Assembly: GCA_016783545.1 (NCBI GenBank)
Contig: JADHWJ010000003.1
Coordinates: forward strand, 36,174-100,173
Length of the DNA: 64,000 bases
Origin: Candidatus Aenigmatarchaeota archaeon
GTDB taxonomy: Archaea; Aenigmatarchaeota; Aenigmatarchaeia; QMZP01
Reading direction: 5' to 3'
Position 1 is the stretch's first letter. Each line of letters starts with the position of its first letter. Made by a program: the position numbers and the translations under genes. This document shows, one piece after another, positions 26,053-39,066 of the stretch. The notes below the pieces were generated by a model. That model saw only the letters and a list, made by a program, of their open reading frames with translations. It made no database searches and was not told where the DNA came from.

Positions 26053-26393
26053 ATTATTTTGAAAAAGGAACTATAAAATGGAAGAGACTAAATGAATTTA
26101 TAAATGGATTTGAAGAAACTGTTGAAAATGTAGAAGTTGCTAAAAATATACTTGATGCTTCGTATCCAAAATTAAGGAAAATTTCATTTTCAGATATAAT
26201 AGAGATTATAAAAAATAAAGAAAGTTTTGATCTATATGAAATATTGGAAAAAGTAAATTTATGTAGATCAAGTCTAGGGAAAAGGATGGAACTACTAACT
26301 CGTACAAACATTTTAATAAAGAAAAGAAGAAAAAGAAATATTTACAATTTTAATGAAAATATTAAAAAATGGAGGCTTCCAAATACTAACTAA
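26046..26393 (+). pseudogene. Frame-shifted C-terminal part of the adjacent endonuclease
   Basis: 115 codons open from a TTG, with no good ribosome-binding site and an overlap of seven bases with the endonuclease stop. The sequence runs on from the same protein style (LNYFEKGTIKWKRL) and ends in a winged-helix-like segment (KRMELLTRTNILIKKRRKR). Read together, the two frames give one protein of about 490 residues, so a one-base slip near 26045 is the simplest explanation. A separate small HTH gene is the alternative. Confidence 0.55.
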
Positions 26394-27390
26394 CCAACAA
26401 CTTTGATATTTTCTTTGGATCATATTCTTCTAAATCATTATATTCTTGTCCTGTACCTAAAAAAAGTATGGGTTTTTTCAACACGAAGGCTGCAGACATG
26501 ATAGCACCGCCCCTTGTGTCAATATCTACCTTTGTCAGTATTATAGCATCGACATTTACCATTTCGTCAAACATCCTTCCCTGGGATATTATATCATTTC
26601 CAGTTAAACTATCAAGGACTAAAATCTTCATATCGGGTTTATTAACTTTGCATATTTTTTTTAATTCGTCAGCAAGATCTTTATTAACATGGGTTCTTCC
26701 GGCAGTATCAGCCAAAACTATATCACATCTATTTGCTTCTGCATATTTTTTTGCATCAAAAACAACAGCTGCAGGATCGGCATTATACTGGTGCTTTATC
26801 ACTTTCATACCTAATTTATTGCCATGAACCTCTAGCTGTTCTTGAGCTGCACTTCTAAAAGTGTCAGCTGCAGCGAAAACAAATTTGTATTTTTTCTTTA
26901 ATTTATATGCTAGTCTCCCTATACACGTCGTTTTTCCTGCACCATTAAATCCGAGAAAAACAAATAGAGCAGGTCTTTTTTCAGATTTTGCTTTTTTAAT
27001 CACATCTTCAATTTTAATTTGTTTTTGATTTAGAACCTTAAAGACAGCATTTTCAAAACTTTCCCTTATAAACTCCTTTGCACTTGTTCTTTTGATAGGC
27101 TTTCCAGCAAACTCTTTTTTAAGATTTTCCTTCAGAAAATCTATTACTTCCAATGCAACATTTGCCTGCAAAAGCTCTGTTTCCAGATCTGTAAAAAAGT
27201 TATCTACATCTTTTTCAGTAAATTCCTTTTCAGTGACCTTTTTTGTTATTTTCTTCAAAAAACTGGTTTCTTTGGGCTTTGGTGGCTCCTTCAGCTCCAA
27301 GAATTCCTCTTTTTCTTCTATTGGTTCCTCTGCTTTTTTTGTTAATTTTTCAACAGATTCTCTGAGTTTCTTTTTCAATAATCCGAACAT
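26386..27390 (-). CDS. ftsY: Signal recognition particle receptor FtsY
   Basis: GTPase receptor that docks SRP-bound ribosomes at the membrane. The NG domain is complete: P-loop FNGAGKTTCIGRLA, DTFRSAAQEQLEVH, ADTAGRTHVNKDL and TKVDIDTRGGA. An acidic and lysine-rich linker (residues about 15-55) replaces a long A domain. The ATG at 27390 (MFGLLKKK) is preferred; upstream in-frame codons look non-coding. Its end overlaps the convergent endonuclease remnant by eight bases. Confidence 0.95.
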   Translation of the reverse strand: MFGLLKKKLRESVEKLTKKAEEPIEEKEEFLELKEPPKPKETSFLKKITKKVTEKEFTEKDVDNFFTDLETELLQANVALEVIDFLKENLKKEFAGKPIKRTSAKEFIRESFENAVFKVLNQKQIKIEDVIKKAKSEKRPALFVFLGFNGAGKTTCIGRLAYKLKKKYKFVFAAADTFRSAAQEQLEVHGNKLGMKVIKHQYNADPAAVVFDAKKYAEANRCDIVLADTAGRTHVNKDLADELKKICKVNKPDMKILVLDSLTGNDIISQGRMFDEMVNVDAIILTKVDIDTRGGAIMSAAFVLKKPILFLGTGQEYNDLEEYDPKKISKLLVS

Positions 27391-27440
27391 AATATAGATT
27401 TCACTAGAGGTTATAAAAACTTTGTTTTCAAGTATTCTCC

Positions 27441-28286
27441 ATGAATACCACAAAAAAGCTATATGAAGACGGTATAGAAAGATTACTTGGAGCCCAGGTG
27501 AATAAAAGAGAGCTTGCAAAAATCGTTAGAATTGAACTTAAAAAAAGATTTAATATTTCGGTGAAAGCTGAAACCGTGAGAAGAGCGTTTAGGAGGAGAG
27601 GTAGAACAAGGAAATATATAATAAGAATACTCGATGATATGGTAAGGGACCAGGACGAAAGGCTAATACCTGTTTATACTGGTCTTATAAGTAGAGATGC
27701 TTTGCCTGATCTTGAAGATTGTATTAAAGTCTTGCATTTTAGAAGCTATAGAGCAATAGCATGTGCAGTTGCAGAAGAGACAGGTATTCCACTTGACACC
27801 GTTATCAATAGTATAGGAAAAAAGAAAAGTTATGGATATATAAGAAGAGAGATAGTTCAATATCTCAAAGATTGGCTGGATTTGGCAAAATCTGGTGGAA
27901 AGCCAGATATAGACTCAAAATACACTGGTGTTAGAACAAGCATAATAAAATCGATGATGCGACTTCTGATTGAAAATGGAGAATATCCTACGAATATTGC
28001 TGTATGTAGATATGTTGCTAAAAAACATGGGTTACGTGCTGAAACAATATATGAAAAATATTTTCTCTGCAAAGGCGATTATGCGCCATTGGATGTATAT
28101 GAAGAGCTTAAAGAAAGAACCAAAGGAGTGAAGCTCTATGACATGACACTCGGTGGATATATGAAAGGTGATAAAATATATCACCATGTATTTGGAGTGG
28201 GTGTTGTAAAGTCTATCAGACCACAATCAATTGACGCTGAATTTGACGGTGATATGAAAAAGCTTGCTATAAACTATGAAATCTGA
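27441..28286 (+). CDS. HTH protein with PcrA/UvrD Tudor-like C-terminal domain
   Basis: 281-residue protein of unknown function. The N-terminal 60 residues look like a DNA-binding helix bundle (KAETVRRAFRRRGRTRK). The middle repeats a similar helical unit (TNIAVCRYVAKKHGLRAETI). Residues about 240-281 (GDKIYHHVFGVGVVKSI) match the small beta-barrel at the C-terminus of UvrD/PcrA helicases, which contacts RNA polymerase in bacteria. It is divergent from ftsY and upstream of the lipid genes. A nucleic-acid or polymerase contact role is inferred. Confidence 0.55.
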   Translation: MNTTKKLYEDGIERLLGAQVNKRELAKIVRIELKKRFNISVKAETVRRAFRRRGRTRKYIIRILDDMVRDQDERLIPVYTGLISRDALPDLEDCIKVLHFRSYRAIACAVAEETGIPLDTVINSIGKKKSYGYIRREIVQYLKDWLDLAKSGGKPDIDSKYTGVRTSIIKSMMRLLIENGEYPTNIAVCRYVAKKHGLRAETIYEKYFLCKGDYAPLDVYEELKERTKGVKLYDMTLGGYMKGDKIYHHVFGVGVVKSIRPQSIDAEFDGDMKKLAINYEI

Positions 28287-28335
28287 ATATTTGGGGTAGT
28301 AAAGGTTAATAAATATTAACTTGTAAAAAGGTTCT

Positions 28336-29364
28336 ATGATTGAGATACCGAGGTTGATTTTGATAGAAAAAGGGGCTATAAACAAGCTTCCTGAAGTCCT
28401 GCAAAAACTGGATATTAAAGGAAAGGCTTTGATAATTGTAGATGAAATAACAAAGGATATTGCTGGTAATAAGATAAAAGAAAGCTTGGAAGGCTCTGAT
28501 TTTGTTATGATAAAAAGTTCCAGAATGGAAGATGTCGAAACAATCAAAAAAGCTGCAGAAGGGTTTGATTGTATAATAGGTGTTGGTGGTGGCAAGATAT
28601 TGGATACCAGCAAAATGGCTGCAATGGAAACAGAAAAACCTTTCATATCATTCCCGACAGCTCCTTCGCACGATGGTATATGTTCAGAGAATGTCTCTTT
28701 AACCGTTGATGGAAAATACCAATCATTAAAGGCAAGAGTTCCTTTTGCATTAGTAGCTGATATTGATATAATAAAAAAAGCTCCATATAGAATGATTGCA
28801 TCTGGGGCAGCAGATCTTGTTGCAAAATATACAGCAAATTTTGATTGGAAGCTTGCAAAGGATAAGCAAAACGAAGAATACAATGATTATGCAGCAGAGC
28901 TTGCATTAGCTTCTGCAAAGATTGTCAAAGATAATGCAAATGATATAAAAAATCTTACTGATAATGGTATAAAGAACCTTGTATGGGGCCTGGTTATATC
29001 AGGCATTTCAATGTCAATGATAAGTAGCTCAAGACCTGGTTCAGGTGCTGAGCATATGTTTTCTCATGCTTTGGATGCACTATGTTCTGAAAAGGGTATA
29101 AAAGGCGCTCTACACGGCGAACAGTGTGGATTTGGTTCCATATTAATGGGACATCATCAAGGAGAGAACTGGGGGGAAACCAAGGAACTTTTGGAAAAAA
29201 TCGGGGCACCTACAACTGCCAAGGATTTGGGCATTGAAGAAGAGATACTAATTGAAGCGCTGTTAAATGCAAAGAACATAAGGGATAGATATACCATCCT
29301 GGATGAAAAACCATTAGACAGGGAGAAAGCAAGGGAGATATTAATAAAAACAGGAGTTATTTAG
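28336..29364 (+). CDS. egsA: Glycerol-1-phosphate dehydrogenase
   Basis: Makes sn-glycerol-1-phosphate from dihydroxyacetone phosphate, the step that sets archaeal lipid stereochemistry. 342 residues of the iron/zinc dehydrogenase fold: GVGGGKILDTSK binds NAD(P), and metal ligands lie in SGAADLVAKY, GAEHMFSHALD and LHGEQCGFG. FPTAPSHDG is characteristic of the EgsA/AraM group. GGGP synthase follows 28 bases downstream, so the first two dedicated steps of ether-lipid synthesis are paired. Confidence 0.95.
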   Translation: MIEIPRLILIEKGAINKLPEVLQKLDIKGKALIIVDEITKDIAGNKIKESLEGSDFVMIKSSRMEDVETIKKAAEGFDCIIGVGGGKILDTSKMAAMETEKPFISFPTAPSHDGICSENVSLTVDGKYQSLKARVPFALVADIDIIKKAPYRMIASGAADLVAKYTANFDWKLAKDKQNEEYNDYAAELALASAKIVKDNANDIKNLTDNGIKNLVWGLVISGISMSMISSSRPGSGAEHMFSHALDALCSEKGIKGALHGEQCGFGSILMGHHQGENWGETKELLEKIGAPTTAKDLGIEEEILIEALLNAKNIRDRYTILDEKPLDREKAREILIKTGVI

Positions 29365-29392
29365 CTTTTTAAACATATTTCTAAGAGATAGT

Positions 29393-30172
29393 ATGAAAGT
29401 CTTTGAATATATAAAAGAGAAGAGAAAAATCACACCTCTACATTTTACACTCATAGATCCTGATAAGCAGAGCCCTGAACAGGCAGGAGAATTTGCAAAA
29501 AAGGCAAAAGAATCTGGTTCAGATGCCATAATGATAGGCGGCTCACAGCCTGATCTGCTTATGTATCTAGATGAAACTGTTAAAGAAGTGAAGAAACGTG
29601 TTGGAGACATCCCTGTTATACTTTTCCCATTTTCCCATTCAGCGCTTTCAAAACACGCAGATGCTGTGTTCTTTATGAGTCTTTTGAATTCCAGATCAAC
29701 ACAATACATAATAGAGGAACAGATGAGGGGTTCTGTTGTCATTGCAAAACATGCAATTGAACCGCTTTCAATGGCATACCTGATAATAGAATCTGGAAAA
29801 CCAACATCAGCTGAATTTGGTGGAGATGCAAAGCCCATCCCAAGAAAAAAGCCGGAATTTGCGGTTGGCTATGCACTTGCTGCAAGATATTTTGGCATGA
29901 AATTTGTTTATTTGGAAGGTGGCTCTGGTGCTGAAAAACCGGTCACAACAAAAATGGTTGCAATGGTTAAAAAAGCTGTTGGGGAAGATGTTTTTGTTAT
30001 TGTTGGTGGTGGTATAAGGGATTCTGAAACAGCAAAATCATTAGCAAGCGCAGGTGCGGATATTTTCGTTACTGGAACAATAGGTGAAGAAGATCCTGAA
30101 AAATTCAAAGAGATAATAAAGTCTATAAAAGAGGGTTCTATAACAAACCTTGACGATTACGTTACACATTAG
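29393..30172 (+). CDS. Geranylgeranylglyceryl phosphate synthase
   Basis: Prenyltransferase joining geranylgeranyl diphosphate to glycerol-1-phosphate, forming the first ether bond. A PcrB-like TIM barrel of 259 residues: HFTLIDPDKQSP and AIMIGGSQ near the N-terminus, VYLEGGSGAEKPV and IVGGGIRDSETAKSLASAGA near the C-terminus bind the phosphate. It directly follows glycerol-1-phosphate dehydrogenase and is followed, 29 bases on, by the first gene of the surface-protein cluster. Confidence 0.95.
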   Translation: MKVFEYIKEKRKITPLHFTLIDPDKQSPEQAGEFAKKAKESGSDAIMIGGSQPDLLMYLDETVKEVKKRVGDIPVILFPFSHSALSKHADAVFFMSLLNSRSTQYIIEEQMRGSVVIAKHAIEPLSMAYLIIESGKPTSAEFGGDAKPIPRKKPEFAVGYALAARYFGMKFVYLEGGSGAEKPVTTKMVAMVKKAVGEDVFVIVGGGIRDSETAKSLASAGADIFVTGTIGEEDPEKFKEIIKSIKEGSITNLDDYVTH

Positions 30173-30201: not shown

Positions 30202-31899
30202 ATGATACCATCAGAAGATGAGCTCTATAGCATATCAAAAGATATTATGGGACAGGGACTCTTAAGAATAAGGAAACCCTGGTTTAAAAGGGTTCATAGA
30301 GTGGAAAAGGTAATCCCGAAAAGGCATAGAGAAAGCACATTCAGGGATTGGTTTGATCCTCTTTTTACAGGATTTTTTACAGGATTCATGGCATTTGCAC
30401 CTCTTGGTTTAGAAGCCGGGCCATTGAAAGGAAGTGTAAAGAATTACAGGAACAGACCAGTTGCAGAGGCAATAGTATATGCAAAACAGCCCAGAGGCGG
30501 GATAGTTGATATTTCAGAGACAGACATATCCGGCAATTACAGACTGGACCTTGAGCCGAGTGATTATATAATAAAGGTGTTTTACAGAGGGAAAAGATTC
30601 AGCAAGTCTATCAGAGTGCCCTCTCTTTTTCCTGGCCAAGAATTGGAAAATCAGGACATATCAATTGATGCGGACACTGACACTAAATTACTAGCAGAAG
30701 CCAGCTCATTTAAAGACTATTTCAAGGTCTATGTGCTTGACACAAGACCAAAAAAGGTTGTTTTCTGTGAGACTCCATACGCAAGCAAAGACGGCTATGA
30801 ATTTACAGGAAAAGGCTATATTCTCCTTGCGGGTGATGATGGTATTAATTTTGGAAGCTCAAATCTTCTTTTCAATTGTAATGATATGGGAAAGGTTAGG
30901 AAAAAAGCGTACACGCCCCCAGATGATATGGAAAAGTTTGCTGATGTTCTTTTTGATCTTGGGCTTGGAATGGCAGTGCCAGGAGGCCCGATAAAATATG
31001 CAGTTACAGTTCCAATAGAGCTATCAAAAATTGCGCGCCCTAAAGAGGGTGTAAGATTCGGAATGAAACCTGAGGATTTTATAAGAAGAACTAGGGGAAG
31101 GACACCGTTAACACGCCCATGGGATGTTCTTCGTGTGCAGAGAGCTGCTTCAGACGCTGGATTAAGGGCAGGATATTATTGCTCGCCTGTTGAACTTGAA
31201 TTCGATGTTGGCGGAAACGGCAATATAGAAGTCTATGCGCTTGCTGCCTGCCATAAGATGGGAAAGAGAGGAAGGGAATGGACTGGGATTAATTGTGATT
31301 TTGATATTGGAAATGGTGTTGCAAGTGAACCGATTGTCAGTAAATCAGGTCTTCAGCATCTTGCAAGAGTTGACAAGTTTGGATACCATTACCCAAATGG
31401 TGTTGATATGGTTGGTGGTGATTATAGATACGATTTCACTGACCCTGAACAATCTTGGTGGGCGCTTATAGAAGCAGCTTCTGCAAAAAATTCTGAATTA
31501 TTTTGTTCATTACTAAGCGAAAGTTTGAAGAGAACAAATGAAAAAGAGATTAGAACATTAAAAAGTATGGGTAGTCGTAGAAGGGCTTCTTCGTTCAGGC
31601 CTTTTCCGAATTATTTTAGAATAAGCTCGAGTGTGCCAGCGAGTTCTGTGAGAAGCTTAAGAAATTATGTTGAATTCAAGTACTCTGGACCTGATTCAGG
31701 TCCGCGCGTAGAAAAAGCAGGTTATATGATAATTGATAAAAAACATGATCCGAGTAAATGTGTTCTGACAACTACAATTGAAACAGAAGACCCGGACGCA
31801 TCTGGCCTAAGAAATCCAAATGCACTCAAATACCATTTTTTCAATGAATTTACATTTGTAAAAGAAGATGGGATATGGAAATTATACAGCCAAGAATAA
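30202..31899 (+). CDS. Large protein with carboxypeptidase-regulatory-like domain
   Basis: 565 residues. A hydrophobic stretch (TGFFTGFMAFAPLGLEAG, about 52-70) could be a membrane helix after a basic cytoplasmic start. Residues 72-140 form a beta-sandwich of the CarboxypepD-reg type (VAEAIVYAKQP, DISGNYRLDLEPSDYIIKV). The rest, with several Cys and Trp, is unknown. It opens the long co-directional run of membrane-anchored proteins. No catalytic motif is seen; a surface structural part is the best guess. Confidence 0.55.
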   Translation: MIPSEDELYSISKDIMGQGLLRIRKPWFKRVHRVEKVIPKRHRESTFRDWFDPLFTGFFTGFMAFAPLGLEAGPLKGSVKNYRNRPVAEAIVYAKQPRGGIVDISETDISGNYRLDLEPSDYIIKVFYRGKRFSKSIRVPSLFPGQELENQDISIDADTDTKLLAEASSFKDYFKVYVLDTRPKKVVFCETPYASKDGYEFTGKGYILLAGDDGINFGSSNLLFNCNDMGKVRKKAYTPPDDMEKFADVLFDLGLGMAVPGGPIKYAVTVPIELSKIARPKEGVRFGMKPEDFIRRTRGRTPLTRPWDVLRVQRAASDAGLRAGYYCSPVELEFDVGGNGNIEVYALAACHKMGKRGREWTGINCDFDIGNGVASEPIVSKSGLQHLARVDKFGYHYPNGVDMVGGDYRYDFTDPEQSWWALIEAASAKNSELFCSLLSESLKRTNEKEIRTLKSMGSRRRASSFRPFPNYFRISSSVPASSVRSLRNYVEFKYSGPDSGPRVEKAGYMIIDKKHDPSKCVLTTTIETEDPDASGLRNPNALKYHFFNEFTFVKEDGIWKLYSQE

Positions 31900-31936
31900 A
31901 AACTAATTTTTAACTTTAGAGAGCGAATAATAAAAC

Positions 31937-32464
31937 ATGGCAGATAATCTTGTTATATCAATAATGTTGACAGCGGCTGCACTTGTATTTATAACGATTG
32001 CTATTATTTTTGCCGTAACATATATTCCTGATGTTATATCCGCCGGCTGCTGGATGAGCGCCCAGCAACAGACCAAACAGTTTGTCGGCTGGTATGTTGA
32101 AGGCCCTGGAAAAGGCGTCTTTACAAAAGAAATCAAAGATCTTCACAGAGAACTGAACCTTGGGGACTGTGTTGAAAAAACAATATTCACAAACAGCCCT
32201 GAAGTCATGTGCAATGATGTAAACATAGTGGCCAAGTGTCCTGCTGATAAGAAAGGCTATATCATCACCTGCAGGGATTCGTCTACAGGAAAGGTTGAGC
32301 AATTCTTCAGAGGTGCGCAGAATATTTGTGTGGGATTTTCAAAGCCTATTGACAAGGAACTGGAGCTAGAGGGCAAGAAAAAGTGGTGCGTTAGCATAGA
32401 CCTTATTGAAAGAAAATATAAAATCTCAGCAGAGGTGGGAGAATGTATAAGAGAAAAGGACTAG
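31937..32464 (+). CDS. Membrane-anchored protein of the surface cluster
   Basis: 175 residues. An N-terminal hydrophobic helix (residues 5-35) is followed by a soluble domain with about eight cysteines (AGCWMSAQ, LGDCVEKT, VMCNDVNIVAKC, YIITCRD), probably disulfide-bonded outside the cell. It overlaps the next gene by 22 bases, so translation is coupled. Family not recognised. Confidence 0.6.
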   Translation: MADNLVISIMLTAAALVFITIAIIFAVTYIPDVISAGCWMSAQQQTKQFVGWYVEGPGKGVFTKEIKDLHRELNLGDCVEKTIFTNSPEVMCNDVNIVAKCPADKKGYIITCRDSSTGKVEQFFRGAQNICVGFSKPIDKELELEGKKKWCVSIDLIERKYKISAEVGECIREKD

Positions 32465-32823
32465 TACACTCGATGATGCTTGCAGCATTTGCATTGATTT
32501 TGGTATATTTTGTTCTTACTCTTCTTGGAACAAGACCTTTCTGGTCCAATTACAATGAAGCTCAGGCAAAGATAATAGCTCATTCAATATCATCCGGTGT
32601 CTCAGTGCTTTCTGTTTCAGACGGTTCTATAACAGAGGAGCTGGAAAGGGAATGGGACATAACAATATCAGATAAGGAAGTAGAGGTTACTTATCAGAAG
32701 GTTAAAAGTGGAAAAGTCAAGCTCAATACAGATTTTGATCTATCAGATATGAAACTGGAAGCTGTGAAAAAGATTGTTATAGAAAGAACTGAATCTGGCA
32801 TCAGAATAAGGGAGGTAGCATAA
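32443..32823 (+). CDS. Pilin-like membrane-anchored protein
   Basis: 126 residues: short basic start, one helix (MLAAFALILVYFVLTLLG), then an exported domain of about 90 residues with alternating strands. The layout, a single N-terminal helix and a small beta-rich head, resembles archaeal pilin-like subunits, but no prepilin peptidase site is clear. It overlaps its neighbours at both ends, so it belongs to a tight operon. Confidence 0.6.
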   Translation: MYKRKGLVHSMMLAAFALILVYFVLTLLGTRPFWSNYNEAQAKIIAHSISSGVSVLSVSDGSITEELEREWDITISDKEVEVTYQKVKSGKVKLNTDFDLSDMKLEAVKKIVIERTESGIRIREVA

Positions 32824-33203
32824 TGCCTGAACAGAATACACTAGTAAGTGGCTTTAATGATATAATTTTCGTGGCTTTTGTTGTAGCCCTTATAATCTAT
32901 GTAGGGATTAATTTTACAGACCTTCAAGTTAAAATGGATCAGACATTTGATGTTGCTGAAGTAAAGCATATAGCACATCTGGCTGAAAACTGCCTGAAAG
33001 GCGGCAATGATTATATTGATCTGGATGATATTAACATGGAGAACTGCATGTTTGACGCTGATCTAATGATAATAACAGATGCTATTACAGGAAAAGAAAA
33101 GAAAGAGGGATGGAATATTATAGGCAGCAGGAGCCATAGGATTGCTGTCAACATAAAAGCTGGTGATGATATACATCCGGGGTGGTTATATGTGGAGTTC
33201 TAG
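32823..33203 (+). CDS. Pilin-like membrane-anchored protein
   Basis: 126 residues, with a helix at residues 12-30 (IIFVAFVVALIIYVGINF) and an exported head with two cysteines (AENCLKGG, MENCMFDA). The ATG shares one base with the previous stop and the end overlaps the next gene by 14 bases. Size and shape match the preceding protein, suggesting related building blocks. No known family. Confidence 0.6.
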   Translation: MPEQNTLVSGFNDIIFVAFVVALIIYVGINFTDLQVKMDQTFDVAEVKHIAHLAENCLKGGNDYIDLDDINMENCMFDADLMIITDAITGKEKKEGWNIIGSRSHRIAVNIKAGDDIHPGWLYVEF

Positions 33204-33633
33204 GAAAGGTATTTACGGCATATTTTTCATAGTTACCATAGGGGTGGCGATGATGTTTTTTTTCATAGCCATGCACACTATTGGGCTGGGTAATATTCTC
33301 ACACTAAGCAAAACTATCATGCTCTCAACCGAGCTTGATGAAAGAGGTTCTTTCTTATGCACATTTATGAATTCAGAAAAAGACGGTATAAAAAATATGG
33401 AGCTTCTTGCTAATCTCTATATTGACTCCACACTAAATACAGAATTTCTTGAGGATATGGTTGATAAAATTTATGGGCCTTACTGGCAGATGAAAATCCA
33501 ACATTCCAGCGGTGAGATTGTTCTGGGAAGGGAAGAGATAGATGATGATGCTATGGGAACAACTATTGATATTCCCATACCAGGTGCTGGAAAATCAGGG
33601 GCTACAAAATCTAAGGTGGTTTTCAAGATATGA
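33190..33633 (+). CDS. Pilin-like membrane-anchored protein
   Basis: 147 residues. The ATG at 33190 was chosen because GGGGTGG lies just upstream. Basic start (MWSSRKGIYG), one helix (IFFIVTIGVAMMFFFIAM), then an exported domain containing the segment ERGSFLCTFMNSEKDGI. It overlaps both neighbours. The sequence around ERGSFL and the later beta-strands resembles other one-helix proteins of the cluster in layout, not in clear identity. Confidence 0.6.
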   Translation: MWSSRKGIYGIFFIVTIGVAMMFFFIAMHTIGLGNILTLSKTIMLSTELDERGSFLCTFMNSEKDGIKNMELLANLYIDSTLNTEFLEDMVDKIYGPYWQMKIQHSSGEIVLGREEIDDDAMGTTIDIPIPGAGKSGATKSKVVFKI

Positions 33634-34595
33634 AAGGCTTCATTGACCCGAACGTGTGGATACTAATCGGAGCAATGATTATCTGCGGACTTTTGGTGCT
33701 TGCATTAATGTCGCTTAAATTTTCCAGTGTTAAAAGGATCACAGAAGATGTCACGCTTGAAGAAGACAAATATACAATGGTCTATGCAATGAATGCTGCA
33801 AACCTATATGCAAAAACCTCCCTGAATTATGCTGTCTATCAGGCATGCTATGACACCTTGAGAAATTCTGAAGTAGGGTCTGAGGAGCAGTTTGAATCAG
33901 CTCTTGGAAACGCTGTTAAGAACAATCTAAATACATATCTATCAGACTATCGCTTTCTTGAAGCATATGTAGTGAAATTCCCAAGTCAGGATATGAAAAT
34001 AAAAATCGAGCCTGATAAGATAGAACTGAATTTAGATGGTAATCTTGTCATGGAGAAAACAAGGGTTGTTGAAAAAGTTATGAAAGAAGAGATAAAACTG
34101 GAAGGTGGTGCTTCTTTGGAAGTGGTTGTGGAAATACCATGCCTTGATACATATCAAATCGGTGTTAGGGAAGAGGATGGTGTAGCAAAAGATCTGAAAA
34201 TAGAGCTAATCAATGCAAAATTAGCGGCTGGCCTTGAAGATACATTTTCTGCTGATGTTGGTAGTGATATTGACTGCGATGCTGTTTTTGAGAGCGCATT
34301 CGGAACAAAAAAGCATGCAAAAGATACTCTGAGAGCAGAACTGGAATCCAGAATAGAAAAACTAAGCACTGGGACAATAGCACTTGAACTAAAGGACCTT
34401 AGTCTTATTATTAAAAATGCAGGCGGGCATACGTCTGATGATGAGACCATATGTGATTTTAATTATGAGATAAAAGCAGACATCCTTATGACTGTTGATG
34501 TTTCAGATGAGAAAACATATCCTGTATGGAACGGAAACGCTATTGCATTTGAAAGACTGATATACCAAACCCTACTAGTAATTATATATCCTTAG
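33630..34595 (+). CDS. Membrane-anchored protein of the surface cluster
   Basis: 321 residues with one N-terminal helix (WILIGAMIICGLLVLALMSL) and a long exported region containing four cysteines (AVYQACYDTL, EIPCLDTYQ, DIDCDAVFE, ETICDFNYE). Its start overlaps the previous gene by four bases and its end meets a small minus-strand gene. Family not recognised; by position it is a larger subunit of the same assembly. Confidence 0.6.
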   Translation: MKGFIDPNVWILIGAMIICGLLVLALMSLKFSSVKRITEDVTLEEDKYTMVYAMNAANLYAKTSLNYAVYQACYDTLRNSEVGSEEQFESALGNAVKNNLNTYLSDYRFLEAYVVKFPSQDMKIKIEPDKIELNLDGNLVMEKTRVVEKVMKEEIKLEGGASLEVVVEIPCLDTYQIGVREEDGVAKDLKIELINAKLAAGLEDTFSADVGSDIDCDAVFESAFGTKKHAKDTLRAELESRIEKLSTGTIALELKDLSLIIKNAGGHTSDDETICDFNYEIKADILMTVDVSDEKTYPVWNGNAIAFERLIYQTLLVIIYP

Positions 34596-34744
34596 ACTGT
34601 TTTGAACATACTCTGAAGATTCCCAAAGAAGCTTTTTACAGCAACAAGCGCATCACCGCTTTTGCTGGACACTATCATTATCAGCATCAAAACCACTACA
34701 AGAATGACAATTGCGAAAACAATTATCTTTAATGGCATCTCCAT
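34592..34744 (-). CDS. 50-residue single-helix membrane protein
   Basis: Starts MEMPLKIIVFAIVILVVVLM, followed by a short charged tail (FFGNLQSMFKTV). It is the only minus-strand gene inside the plus-strand cluster and is convergent with the 321-residue gene, overlapping it by four bases. It could be a small accessory subunit. An upstream extension to 34819 is possible but unlikely. Confidence 0.45.
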   Translation of the reverse strand: MEMPLKIIVFAIVILVVVLMLIMIVSSKSGDALVAVKSFFGNLQSMFKTV

Positions 34745-34799
34745 AATTAATATTGGTAATGGTTTAATAAATATATAGGGCTCTGACCAATTATTAGTT

Positions 34800-34901
34800 A
34801 TGAAAGGTAGTTCATTCAAACTTCTTTTTGATGTAATACTAATTGTGATAATCCTTACAATAATAAGTTATGCTATATTAACGATGACGGAGGTAATATG
34901 A
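34800..34901 (+). CDS. 33-residue membrane peptide of the surface cluster
   Basis: One helix (LLFDVILIVIILTIISYAIL) with a basic start (MKGSSFK). Its stop overlaps the ATG of the next gene by four bases, and a GGAGG site for that next gene lies inside its last codons. The tight coupling supports it as real despite its size. Confidence 0.55.
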   Translation: MKGSSFKLLFDVILIVIILTIISYAILTMTEVI

Positions 34902-35056
34902 AAGGGGAAATAAGTGCAAAAATGTGGTGGATATTAGGGATTATAGTGCTTACTGTTATCCTGATAGTTGTTTTTTCAGGAAGCTTTAGTAATTTTTTTA
35001 GTAAGGCCGGACCTTACATGGCAAATCTATTCAAAATGATTTCATTTGGTGGTTAA
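34898..35056 (+). CDS. 52-residue membrane peptide of the surface cluster
   Basis: Helix at residues 10-27 (WWILGIIVLTVILIVVF) with a short amphipathic tail (SFSNFFSKAGPYMANL). It is preceded by GGAGG and followed without a gap by the 760-residue gene, so the three are translated as a unit. No known family. Confidence 0.6.
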   Translation: MKGEISAKMWWILGIIVLTVILIVVFSGSFSNFFSKAGPYMANLFKMISFGG

Positions 35057-37339
35057 ATGGCTGAAAAGACGTTTGAGATAATTGGCTTTATGATATTTGC
35101 ACTTGTTGCTATACTGATTCTTGCATATTGGATGTACGGTCCTGATGGTATAGCGCAGTTTCTTGGCTTTGATCCATTTGAGCCTCTCGAAAAGCTCTTT
35201 GCCCAGTTCTTTGGCGGTTCAAAGGAAATGGTGGAATATCAGAAAGCAAAATATTCAGCAAAGGCTGTATGGTGCGCGGTTATGGTGGCGTCGCGGGGTA
35301 ATATAAATGATCCATGTCTGGCTGAGTTTACAGAGGAAATAAAAAATGGGTTTAAGGTCGGTGACATGGAAAAGGAGAACCATATAATACAGGCAACAGG
35401 CAAGGCAGATGCAAGGAGCAAATGCACAGTAAAATGCACAAGGGATAAGATAGGCTGCAAGCCTGAGATAGTGCCGAAGGAAGGCACAAATGAATTCGAA
35501 TGTATAATAAGATGGAGTAAGACAGGAATGTCAGGTGGAGCGTTTTTCAAGCCAGTAGGCCTGGCAGTGGCGCCTGCAATACCCACAATAGACACTAATA
35601 AAGAACCTGAATATGATGAGGATTATGTTGGAGCAGCCAATATTGAATGCAGGGAACTTGGCGGCACAAAAGCAGTTGATTTCATTGATACAACAGACAA
35701 AGATGAGGCAAAGACAGAATGCAATGAAATGTTTGGGGACAAGGCCATGGCAGAGATATATGAAGCCGGTGTCTACAGGTGCATGGTACCTGAGGTCAGC
35801 TGCACTATTGATGAATTCATTCTTCCGCAAAGGATTACTGATGCAGAAGAACATATTGCGCATTATGGAGACCCATTGTATCTGATTTATTGGGAAGAGT
35901 TCCCAAAGGAGTGGGACACATGGACATATGAACCTGACTGGAAGATGCATCTATTAATAGGTACAATCTCTGTTTTCCCGTTCGGCAAGATAGGTGGCAT
36001 GCTTTTCAAAGGCAGTGTTAATATAGCAAAAGGTGGGAGGGCAGCAACAGCCCTTGCTGCCTCGCTTAAAACAGCACCAGGTGTGACAGATGATGCAGCA
36101 AAGGTTGTAATTGCTACACTAAAATCTGGTGGTGGGAAAGTTACAGACAAGTCTCTGAAAGCTGCGATAAGAACCGCTATGCCAGGAGCATTAGGCCCAC
36201 AGATAGATGATATTGCTCTAGCAGCCAGCAAGAGCATGGGCAAACACCTAGGCTATGGTGGCGTCAAGGAAATATTAAAGAGAACATTCTCAGCGCACAT
36301 GGCAAGAAAGCTTGTAAAATATCCATTAAAACATCCGATAAGGGTTTTGGGTAAGTTTGTTGCAGGGGAGGCAGCACTTCTTTTGGTAAACCTTGTTGAA
36401 AGCATGTCCCATAAATATGAGCCAGTGGGCAATTCAATTGTTCTGAAGATACCTTTCCTTGACCCTGACAACTTTGAGCTGACAGAAGGCTGGGAAGGAA
36501 AACCTGTAGTGGTTAAATGGAACCCTGGCGCATTTGGTTTTGAAAAAACAACAAGATTCCATCTTGTTTCCCCATGTAAGATCTCAAAGCTGGACATAAC
36601 TCAAAAATATGTGGAATGCAGCAGCTATTCCTATAATTGGAAAGAAAAGGCAACAAAATGCACATACGCTGACCCAGACGAGTCTGATTGGGGAATTGAA
36701 GAGGTTTCAAGCATTGAAAAGTCCAGGATGTGCAGACTGAAAAGCCTTGCTGGTATAGACACTGAAAAACTGGACAAGACCAACACAAGGGATTTCATAC
36801 ATGAACTGTTTTATAAGGACTATAGTGTAGAAACAATAGACATTGAGATTGGTGATGAGGTTGTCTCAAAGAAAATTCCATTAACAGAGCTTCCTTCTGA
36901 AGATGACACGCTTGGTATGTCAATAAGCACAAGAATGAATGGGAATGATATCATATTCAGAGACGCAGACGGCGACGGATTCCTTGACACTTTCACTGTT
37001 CTCGGCTGTCAGGCACCTGCTATAGAAGTATGGGCAGATGTCGGAGGTGTTGCATCGTGGGGAGAAATGGACGGTGATTATGATGATAATTATTGTTTGA
37101 ACAGAAAATATGAGGTTATAGAAAAACCCACAGTGTTCTTGAAGAATGTGGCACTCTATATTGGAATGGGTGGTGGTTTAATTGTTGCTGGTGTTAGCGG
37201 CATTGCTGGGTTCTTTTATCCACCAGCATGGTTGGTTACTGCAGGCTCTATGAAAGTTTTCACTGCCAGTGCAATTGCATCTGGTGTTTTTGAGATTGCT
37301 CAGGGAACCTATGAATATACAGGTATATGGCCAAGTTAA
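35057..37339 (+). CDS. 760-residue membrane protein with Ca-binding-like loop
   Basis: Largest protein of the cluster. One N-terminal helix (FMIFALVAILILAYW), a cysteine-rich section (about residues 110-270, such as CTVKCTRDKIGCK), a helix-rich middle (residues 300-460), an EF-hand-like DADGDGFLD near residue 636, and two hydrophobic helices at the C-terminus. The starting ATG touches the previous stop. It may be the scaffold or tip of an envelope structure. No family recognised. Confidence 0.6.
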   Translation: MAEKTFEIIGFMIFALVAILILAYWMYGPDGIAQFLGFDPFEPLEKLFAQFFGGSKEMVEYQKAKYSAKAVWCAVMVASRGNINDPCLAEFTEEIKNGFKVGDMEKENHIIQATGKADARSKCTVKCTRDKIGCKPEIVPKEGTNEFECIIRWSKTGMSGGAFFKPVGLAVAPAIPTIDTNKEPEYDEDYVGAANIECRELGGTKAVDFIDTTDKDEAKTECNEMFGDKAMAEIYEAGVYRCMVPEVSCTIDEFILPQRITDAEEHIAHYGDPLYLIYWEEFPKEWDTWTYEPDWKMHLLIGTISVFPFGKIGGMLFKGSVNIAKGGRAATALAASLKTAPGVTDDAAKVVIATLKSGGGKVTDKSLKAAIRTAMPGALGPQIDDIALAASKSMGKHLGYGGVKEILKRTFSAHMARKLVKYPLKHPIRVLGKFVAGEAALLLVNLVESMSHKYEPVGNSIVLKIPFLDPDNFELTEGWEGKPVVVKWNPGAFGFEKTTRFHLVSPCKISKLDITQKYVECSSYSYNWKEKATKCTYADPDESDWGIEEVSSIEKSRMCRLKSLAGIDTEKLDKTNTRDFIHELFYKDYSVETIDIEIGDEVVSKKIPLTELPSEDDTLGMSISTRMNGNDIIFRDADGDGFLDTFTVLGCQAPAIEVWADVGGVASWGEMDGDYDDNYCLNRKYEVIEKPTVFLKNVALYIGMGGGLIVAGVSGIAGFFYPPAWLVTAGSMKVFTASAIASGVFEIAQGTYEYTGIWPS

Positions 37340-37764: not shown

Positions 37765-39066
37765 TTATTCAACATCTCCAGAACTATACGTATTTTTGAT
37801 TCTGTATCCTGTATCTACTTTATATTTTGCATCATTATCATCCTTGTATTCCCTTGATTCTTTCTCTTCATACTTTTCCTCTTCCTTTTCATCTGAAGCC
37901 TCAGATGCTAACGGAATATTTCTTTTTTCCTCAAATTCCATATCTATATCACATTCTGATGCATAACTTAAACTTGTCTTAAATTCCCAAACCAGTTCCC
38001 CTTCATTAGCTGATACGCATCTAAGTTTGCAATCCCAACCACCAAAATATATCATATTATTATAAACAGCAATACCAATTGTTTCATATTCATTTGTTTC
38101 AAACTTCCAAACAAGCTTTCCGGCCATTGTCAAGCAATAGAAATTCTTGTCACATGCACCAAAGTATATTTTATTATTATAAATTGTAGGGTATGCATAG
38201 AGCATGTTCCCTGTTTTAAATTTCCATTTTATCTCTCCATTAGTTGAAACAGCATACAGATTATGATCATATGAACTAAAATAAAGAATATTCTCGTAAA
38301 CAAGTGGTGTTGATATTATTGCACCACCAGTACTAAACTTCCAAATTAATTTACCATTATGAGATATTGCATAGAGGTTATGATCTCTACTTCCAAAATA
38401 AATACCATTCTCATCTATTGCTAAACCCCAATTTATTTCATCACCTGCAGTAAATTTCCAAATCAATTTACCATCAAGACTTAACACATAGAGATTATGA
38501 TCCCAAGAACCAAAATATATATTATCTTTGTATATCTTTGGGGTCATTATAGAGCCTTTTGTATGAAATCTCCAGAGTTCTTTTCCTGTCTTTGAATTAA
38601 GAGCATAGAAGACGTCATCTTTTGATCCAAAATAAACAACACCCCTATATACAATTTGATTAAATAACTTACTGTTCGTATTGAATTTCCAAATAAGCTT
38701 TCCAGTTTCTATATCCACAGCATACATCAAACCATCAAAACTACTAAAATATACAATATCATCAGCCAATGCGGCTCTATCTCCTACTAATGGTCCTTTA
38801 GTTCTAAATCTCCATAATTCTTCTCCTGTTTCAGCATCAACTGCATAGAAATTATGATCACATGCACCGAAATATAGAACACCCTTATGGACTACTGGTA
38901 TATAATTAACACTACCACCTGTTTTAACACCCCAAAATACATCTTTGTTGGCTTTTTTAACTATTGCCCATTCAGCTTCTTCTTGAACTTCTTCTAGAAT
39001 AGATCTGTCTATTTCAATACTTGTTTTGATCTCTGGTACAGTGGTATCTGATTCAAAATATTCCAT
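37765..39066 (-). CDS. PQQ-like beta-propeller repeat protein
   Basis: 433 residues with about eight repeats of the type GxLIWKFxTG, IYFGSxDHNLYA, the PQQ/WD-like beta-propeller. No signal peptide or membrane helix is seen, so the protein looks cytoplasmic, unlike most exported PQQ-repeat proteins. No cofactor-binding motif is seen and the role is probably scaffolding. The C-terminal 50 residues are acidic and lysine-rich (EASDEKEEEKYEEKESREYK). It is convergent with the 82-residue gene. Confidence 0.85.
   Translation of the reverse strand: MEYFESDTTVPEIKTSIEIDRSILEEVQEEAEWAIVKKANKDVFWGVKTGGSVNYIPVVHKGVLYFGACDHNFYAVDAETGEELWRFRTKGPLVGDRAALADDIVYFSSFDGLMYAVDIETGKLIWKFNTNSKLFNQIVYRGVVYFGSKDDVFYALNSKTGKELWRFHTKGSIMTPKIYKDNIYFGSWDHNLYVLSLDGKLIWKFTAGDEINWGLAIDENGIYFGSRDHNLYAISHNGKLIWKFSTGGAIISTPLVYENILYFSSYDHNLYAVSTNGEIKWKFKTGNMLYAYPTIYNNKIYFGACDKNFYCLTMAGKLVWKFETNEYETIGIAVYNNMIYFGGWDCKLRCVSANEGELVWEFKTSLSYASECDIDMEFEEKRNIPLASEASDEKEEEKYEEKESREYKDDNDAKYKVDTGYRIKNTYSSGDVE

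Follow-up and report, generated by a model that had tools for sequence, protein, structure and literature searches.

A dense cluster of ten genes (A to J) at positions 30,202-37,339 of a 64,000-nucleotide stretch of a Candidatus Aenigmatarchaeota genome (contig JADHWJ010000003.1; the whole stretch is called the window below) probably encodes the pilin, minor-pilin and accessory envelope half of a DPANN type IV pilus/Tad-like machine, with the motor genes unlinked. That the machine belongs to the type IV pilus/Tad-like class is very probable. By sequence, all parts are present, they are orthologous to copies that are linked in relatives, the gene order is conserved and prepilin leader motifs occur. 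An earlier note on the window had described an envelope assembly recalling a pilus, an impression borne out by the motor orthologs that adjoin the cluster in relatives. It had also proposed an uncharacterised machine without an assembly ATPase, prepilin peptidase or polytopic core. This second claim fails, given that all three are encoded in the same genome, on the contigs here called C14 and C16; the engine seemed to be missing because the genes are dispersed in this genome, and the cluster is better read as the pilin part of a split system.

The source genome (approximately 0.89 Mb, 70% complete) carries the cluster much as the earlier note had drawn it, with exported one-helix proteins encoded by overlapping genes. 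One hydrophobic helix is found at the start of each of B-F, H, I and J; the B/C, C/D, D/E and E/F overlaps amount to 22, 1, 14 and 4 bases, H and I overlap by 4 bases, and J starts directly after I. The tight coupling that the note had remarked on is thus present, although overlaps by themselves are no measure of the fixed stoichiometry that it had suggested. The note had suggested examining gene order in related genomes, and this order extends far beyond the strain. When B-F were located by iterated profiles, the same B-C-D-E-F order was found in approximately 20 loci, and the same profiles on further contigs added approximately 10 more genomes. Counted once per genome, whole or in part (several runs end at contig ends), the order is present in 32 genomes including that of the window, i.e., in 31 others. 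J was found in 42 of the 145 relatives searched and in 38 of the 41 genomes of the order. The ATPase and platform genes lie directly upstream of the cluster in cis in five loci (L030, L033, L037, L039 and L058), and the platform alone in L034. In genomes of two other families (f2 and f5), the order ATPase-platform-J-small peptides-B-to-F is direct.

The motor parts themselves were found elsewhere in the genome, which holds four T2SSE matches. The search for a matching ATPase, also proposed in the earlier note, yielded a 745-aa assembly ATPase on C14 (L065:5663-7900; T2SSE, 59.6 bits vs. a cut-off of 24.9), which is 60-65% identical to the cluster-linked ATPases of relatives and matches CpaF and FlaI in the PDB. 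A platform protein of 678 aa with approximately nine helices is encoded on C16 and shares 51-58% identity with its counterparts that adjoin the ATPase in the linked loci. Adjoining it is a prepilin peptidase of 279 aa (Peptidase_A24, 31.9 bits vs. a cut-off of 26.5); the archaeal prepilin peptidase model PF06847 gave no match. Additionally, a coiled-coil protein (C16:41196-41537), 6 kb from the platform, is 31% identical to a neighbour in L030 (E 2e-12). It is accompanied by a UBA-like and a five-helix protein, both of which also flank the linked locus in relatives. An archaellum was considered as well and rejected: the ATPase reaches 112.5 bits against a FlaI cut-off of 550, short of a FlaI-type motor, FlaH not having been searched.

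Other pilus-related arrays are present in the same genome. C17:38000-42300 holds pilin-like genes together with an ATPase gene and two TadC-like ones, C4:7297-10179 has a second ATPase and TadC pair, and at C12:65634-66976 a single TadC lies next to a pilin with an MKG leader. Many relatives have an intein (TIGR01445, 3.7e-13) inserted in the pilus ATPase at residue ~480-483, as in L137:9932-13777 and in L153:3230-9238, the latter with two inteins; split ATPase matches also occur in G005, G008, G010, G011, G034 and others.

The N-termini of the one-helix proteins point in the same direction. Of 109 B-F members, 74 have a lysine or arginine followed by glycine (K/R-G) ahead of the helix, the class III type of leader known from archaeal prepilins; the motif was seen in 6 of 39 one-helix proteins outside B-F and was absent from all 44 multi-helix proteins compared. 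Within the window, such a leader is found in C, E, F, H and I. Members of the G family are hydrophobic peptides of ~50-150 aa that lie beside J in relatives, and G is a candidate small (Flp-like) pilin.

In relatives, several of these subunits carry murein-cutting domains. Hydrolases were counted from Pfam scans of all members, genome-wide matches, profile scans and a map of open reading frames; by this count, C, D, E or F bears such a domain in 21 of the 32 genomes with the operon. E is the main hydrolase socket, with an M23 peptidase in 17 genomes (out of the 20 M23-matching genomes of the order) and M15 in 2. An SLT transglycosylase is present on C in 9, probably 10, genomes and on D in one relative (L030), and F carries SLT in 2 genomes, VanY in 1 and PG_binding_1 in 1. 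A glycan cutter and M23 occur together in ten genomes, and in L056 an SLT, an M23 and a wall-binding domain are distributed over three subunits. The M23 zinc-ligand motifs are complete in 6 of 8 aligned domains. When E was used as a query in a PDB profile search, only its M23 part was matched, and J and A returned nothing. In two families the enzyme comes before the conserved DIPLPG motif, whereas in a third it comes after; since, in addition, M23 and M15 occupy the same place, more than one gain is indicated. Contamination is unlikely because the genes for the hydrolases are embedded in the archaeal operon and have the archaeal N-terminal part in common. In a tree of concatenated B-F, the group with appended hydrolases is separate with full support, and the window's placement is weak (support 28-67), which is compatible both with loss of the enzyme and with its never having been acquired. 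The one-helix motor neighbours in Nanohaloarchaeota and distant Aenigmatarchaeota (L107-L155) carry no murein hydrolases and bear other heads, namely CARDB, cellulase GH5, invasin domain 3 and crystallin-like domains; thus, murein enzymes are not a general feature of such neighbours.

Taken together, these parts suggest how the machine may work. The A24 peptidase would cut the K/R-G leader, after which the VirB11/CpaF-like ATPase and the TadC-like platform could build a filament from the short helical peptides G, H and I, with B-F and J forming its base and tip. The tip subunits would act as exchangeable sockets that, in relatives, present murein hydrolases: C as a glycan cutter, E as a peptide cutter and F sometimes as a binder or second cutter. 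Tips armed in this manner would most likely bind to the wall of a bacterium, whether partner or prey, or break through it. That the armed relatives target murein is given about an even chance; their substrate would probably be foreign, bacterial murein. In the window's species, where the sockets are bare, a role in contact or adhesion is likely.

Three other explanations have to be weighed against a split pilus. The cluster could form a pseudopilus like that of a type II secretion system (T2SS), secreting soluble proteins, with the one-helix genes as pseudopilins and the murein-cutting domains as cargo or in transit. Type IV pili and T2SS do have in common the kinds of ATPase, platform and peptidase identified in this genome, many of the one-helix subunits look low in abundance, and the major-pilin candidates are all very short. 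However, the hydrolases are covalent parts of conserved subunits, placed before or after the same scaffold motif, an arrangement that fits display better than cargo. An outer-membrane secretin is not to be expected in a single-membrane archaeon, which also counts against secretion. This explanation is considered unlikely. Less likely still is an independent surface complex such as an adhesin array, for which the pilus-motor neighbourhood in a few relatives would be incidental. It gains some plausibility from the window's own family, in most genomes of which the cluster adjoins FtsY, egsA and GGGPS, not the ATPase; yet the same orthologs exist in both linkage states, the direct order in f2 and f5 joins them to the motor, K/R-G leaders are enriched, and similar ATPase-platform-one-helix arrays are found in Nanohaloarchaeota.

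The hydrolases might, alternatively, remodel the archaeon's own wall for passage of the pilus. Bacterial envelope machines often use dedicated transglycosylases and M23 proteins, which speaks for such a role, as does a match to Mur_ligase_M in 13 of 61 genomes. Nevertheless, the penicillin-binding protein (PBP) transpeptidase was found in none of the 61 genomes and in 10 of 10 bacterial controls; the Mur ligase matches are single, never more, in each of the 13 genomes, they also occur in the M. jannaschii and H. volcanii controls, and they are absent in six M23-armed genomes (G002, G007, G017, G020, G023 and G027). Murein of the archaeon's own is therefore unlikely. Remodelling of its own wall was rejected on these grounds as the least probable of the three.

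The split pilus remains the preferred reading, although several points weigh against it. In this genome the pairing of cluster and motor depends on orthology, and further T2SSE ATPases and TadC-like proteins are encoded on C17, C4 and C12. The C16 platform scores 16.9-19.8 bits against T2SSF, under the Pfam cut-off of 25.2. Within the window, no clear K/R-G leader is seen in B, D, G or J, and the AlphaFold2 models of E and J, built from six sequences each, are too poor (pLDDT 48.6 for E and 32.7 for J) to reveal a pilin fold. The last M23 ligand in L039 and L058 reads HLD, not HLH. The window genome, at its 70% completeness, gave neither M23 nor SLT matches, so the hydrolase role does not directly apply to the window's species. 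More generally, the machine is known here from genes, from which joint assembly, the major pilin and the positions within the filament are deduced.

Table 1. Genes of the cluster, with positions in the window.
Gene	Product	Positions	Strand	Features
A	565 aa	30202-31899	+	carboxypeptidase-regulatory-like domain below cut-off; 0 predicted helices; membership doubtful
B	175 aa	31937-32464	+	N-terminal helix and exported domain rich in Cys; five family-wide invariant Cys
C	126 aa	32443-32823	+	pilin-like, leader MYKRKG; SLT absent here
D	126 aa	32823-33203	+	pilin-like
E	147 aa	33190-33633	+	pilin-like, leader MWSSRKG; DIPIPG scaffold motif near C terminus; bare here
F	321 aa	33630-34595	+	pilin-like, leader MKG
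G	50-aa one-helix peptide	34592-34744	-	opposite strand, overlaps the end of F
H	33-aa one-helix peptide	34800-34901	+	leader MKG
I	52-aa one-helix peptide	34898-35056	+	leader MKG; candidate small pilin
J	760 aa	35057-37339	+	large, N-terminally anchored, Cys-rich; marker of the system

None of A-J matched a Pfam family above cut-off, and no M23, M15, SLT or VanY domain was found in them; likewise, the window proteins matched no NCBIfam family. The earlier note had counted about ten genes as one assembly, of which B-F hold together as a conserved run and A fits poorly, having neither a helix nor a relative in the compared loci. A is inserted between GGGPS and B, with egsA and GGGPS upstream. 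FtsY, egsA and GGGPS (window 26386-30172) precede the cluster, as they also do in L025, L036, L052 and L059 of the same family. Peptides of 33, 50 and 52 residues all exist as the note had it, the 50-residue one on the minus strand; no relative of H or I was detected, H being too short for the search. The large protein that the note called multi-helix with an EF-hand-like loop is J: its acidic DxDxDGxxD loop (FRDADGDGFLD) is real and partly conserved in the J family, and the protein is not clearly multi-helix, with one sure N-terminal helix and hydrophobic segments around residues 299 and 698. Of two proteins that resemble repeat beta-propellers, with repeated YFGSxDxxxYA-type motifs, one adjoins the cluster (window 37765-39066) and the other is on the ATPase contig (L065:2675-3964).

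Comparison with known systems, made on portions of each publication, places the machine among described DPANN pili. Hamm et al. (2024, PMC11291902) published two pilus loci of DPANN archaea that comprise CpaF, TadC and coiled-coil proteins, and 'locus 2' is reported there for Nanohaloarchaeota, Aenigmarchaeota and others. By its description, locus 2 resembles the system found here, given that a CpaF-like ATPase, a TadC-like platform and a divergent coiled-coil gene are all present in the window genome. The legend of the locus figure names filament proteins (FlaF and PilA) only for locus 1, whereas here B-F, J and the short peptides can be placed with the core; neither the one-helix set nor hydrolase-bearing subunits were found in the main text of that paper. 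Tad-type clusters of Nanohaloarchaeota and Undinarchaeota share a TadA-like ATPase, a platform and a prepilin peptidase with the present system, but no pilins could be annotated in them (PMC9563170); pilin candidates are supplied here for the Aenigmatarchaeota version. The secretion ATPase, TadC and prepilin peptidase are likewise shared with archaeal type IV pili in the 168-genome census of Makarova, Koonin and Albers (2016, PMC4858521), which describes numerous pilin families that are short-lived, motor and pilin sets that pair in a modular way, and pilin genes located apart from motor genes. In the portion of the census drawn on here, one nanoarchaeal ATPase clade is without findable cognate pilins, Woesearchaeota, Parvarchaeota and Micrarchaeota go unmentioned, and no murein hydrolase subunits are noted.

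Archaeal murein hydrolases have been described in other settings. Peptidoglycan hydrolases with M23 and other murein-cutting domains were reported to kill bacteria (PMC12352652); as far as that account goes, these enzymes are secreted in free form, each with its own wall-binding domain (others were filtered out), and pili are unmentioned, unlike the hydrolases described here, which are mostly domains of pilin-like subunits. Woese- and Pacearchaeota encode murein-transglycosylase-like proteins with SLT-type domains, for which bacterial hosts were suggested (PMC8204110). These are single proteins of up to 3000 aa, in contrast to the small pilus subunits of a conserved operon found here. No paper joining pilin, M23 peptidase, archaea and peptidoglycan was found in the open-licence literature, and the one-helix set and hydrolase heads provisionally appear to be new as part of a DPANN pilus locus.

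With a cognate set of one-helix subunits now placed beside a DPANN pilus motor, the machine becomes testable. It is possible, if somewhat less than an even prospect, that Aenigmatarchaeota, in which nothing points to a murein wall, make type IV-like pili with tip enzymes that cut bacterial walls, gained more than once at different scaffold positions, and use these pili to adhere to bacteria, enter them or prey upon them. Cultivated DPANN archaea are described, in the account consulted, as dependent on archaeal hosts (PMC11291902). If the armed versions do act on bacteria, they would constitute an archaeal contact weapon or drill against bacterial walls, and this would bear on what uncultured Aenigmatarchaeota live on.

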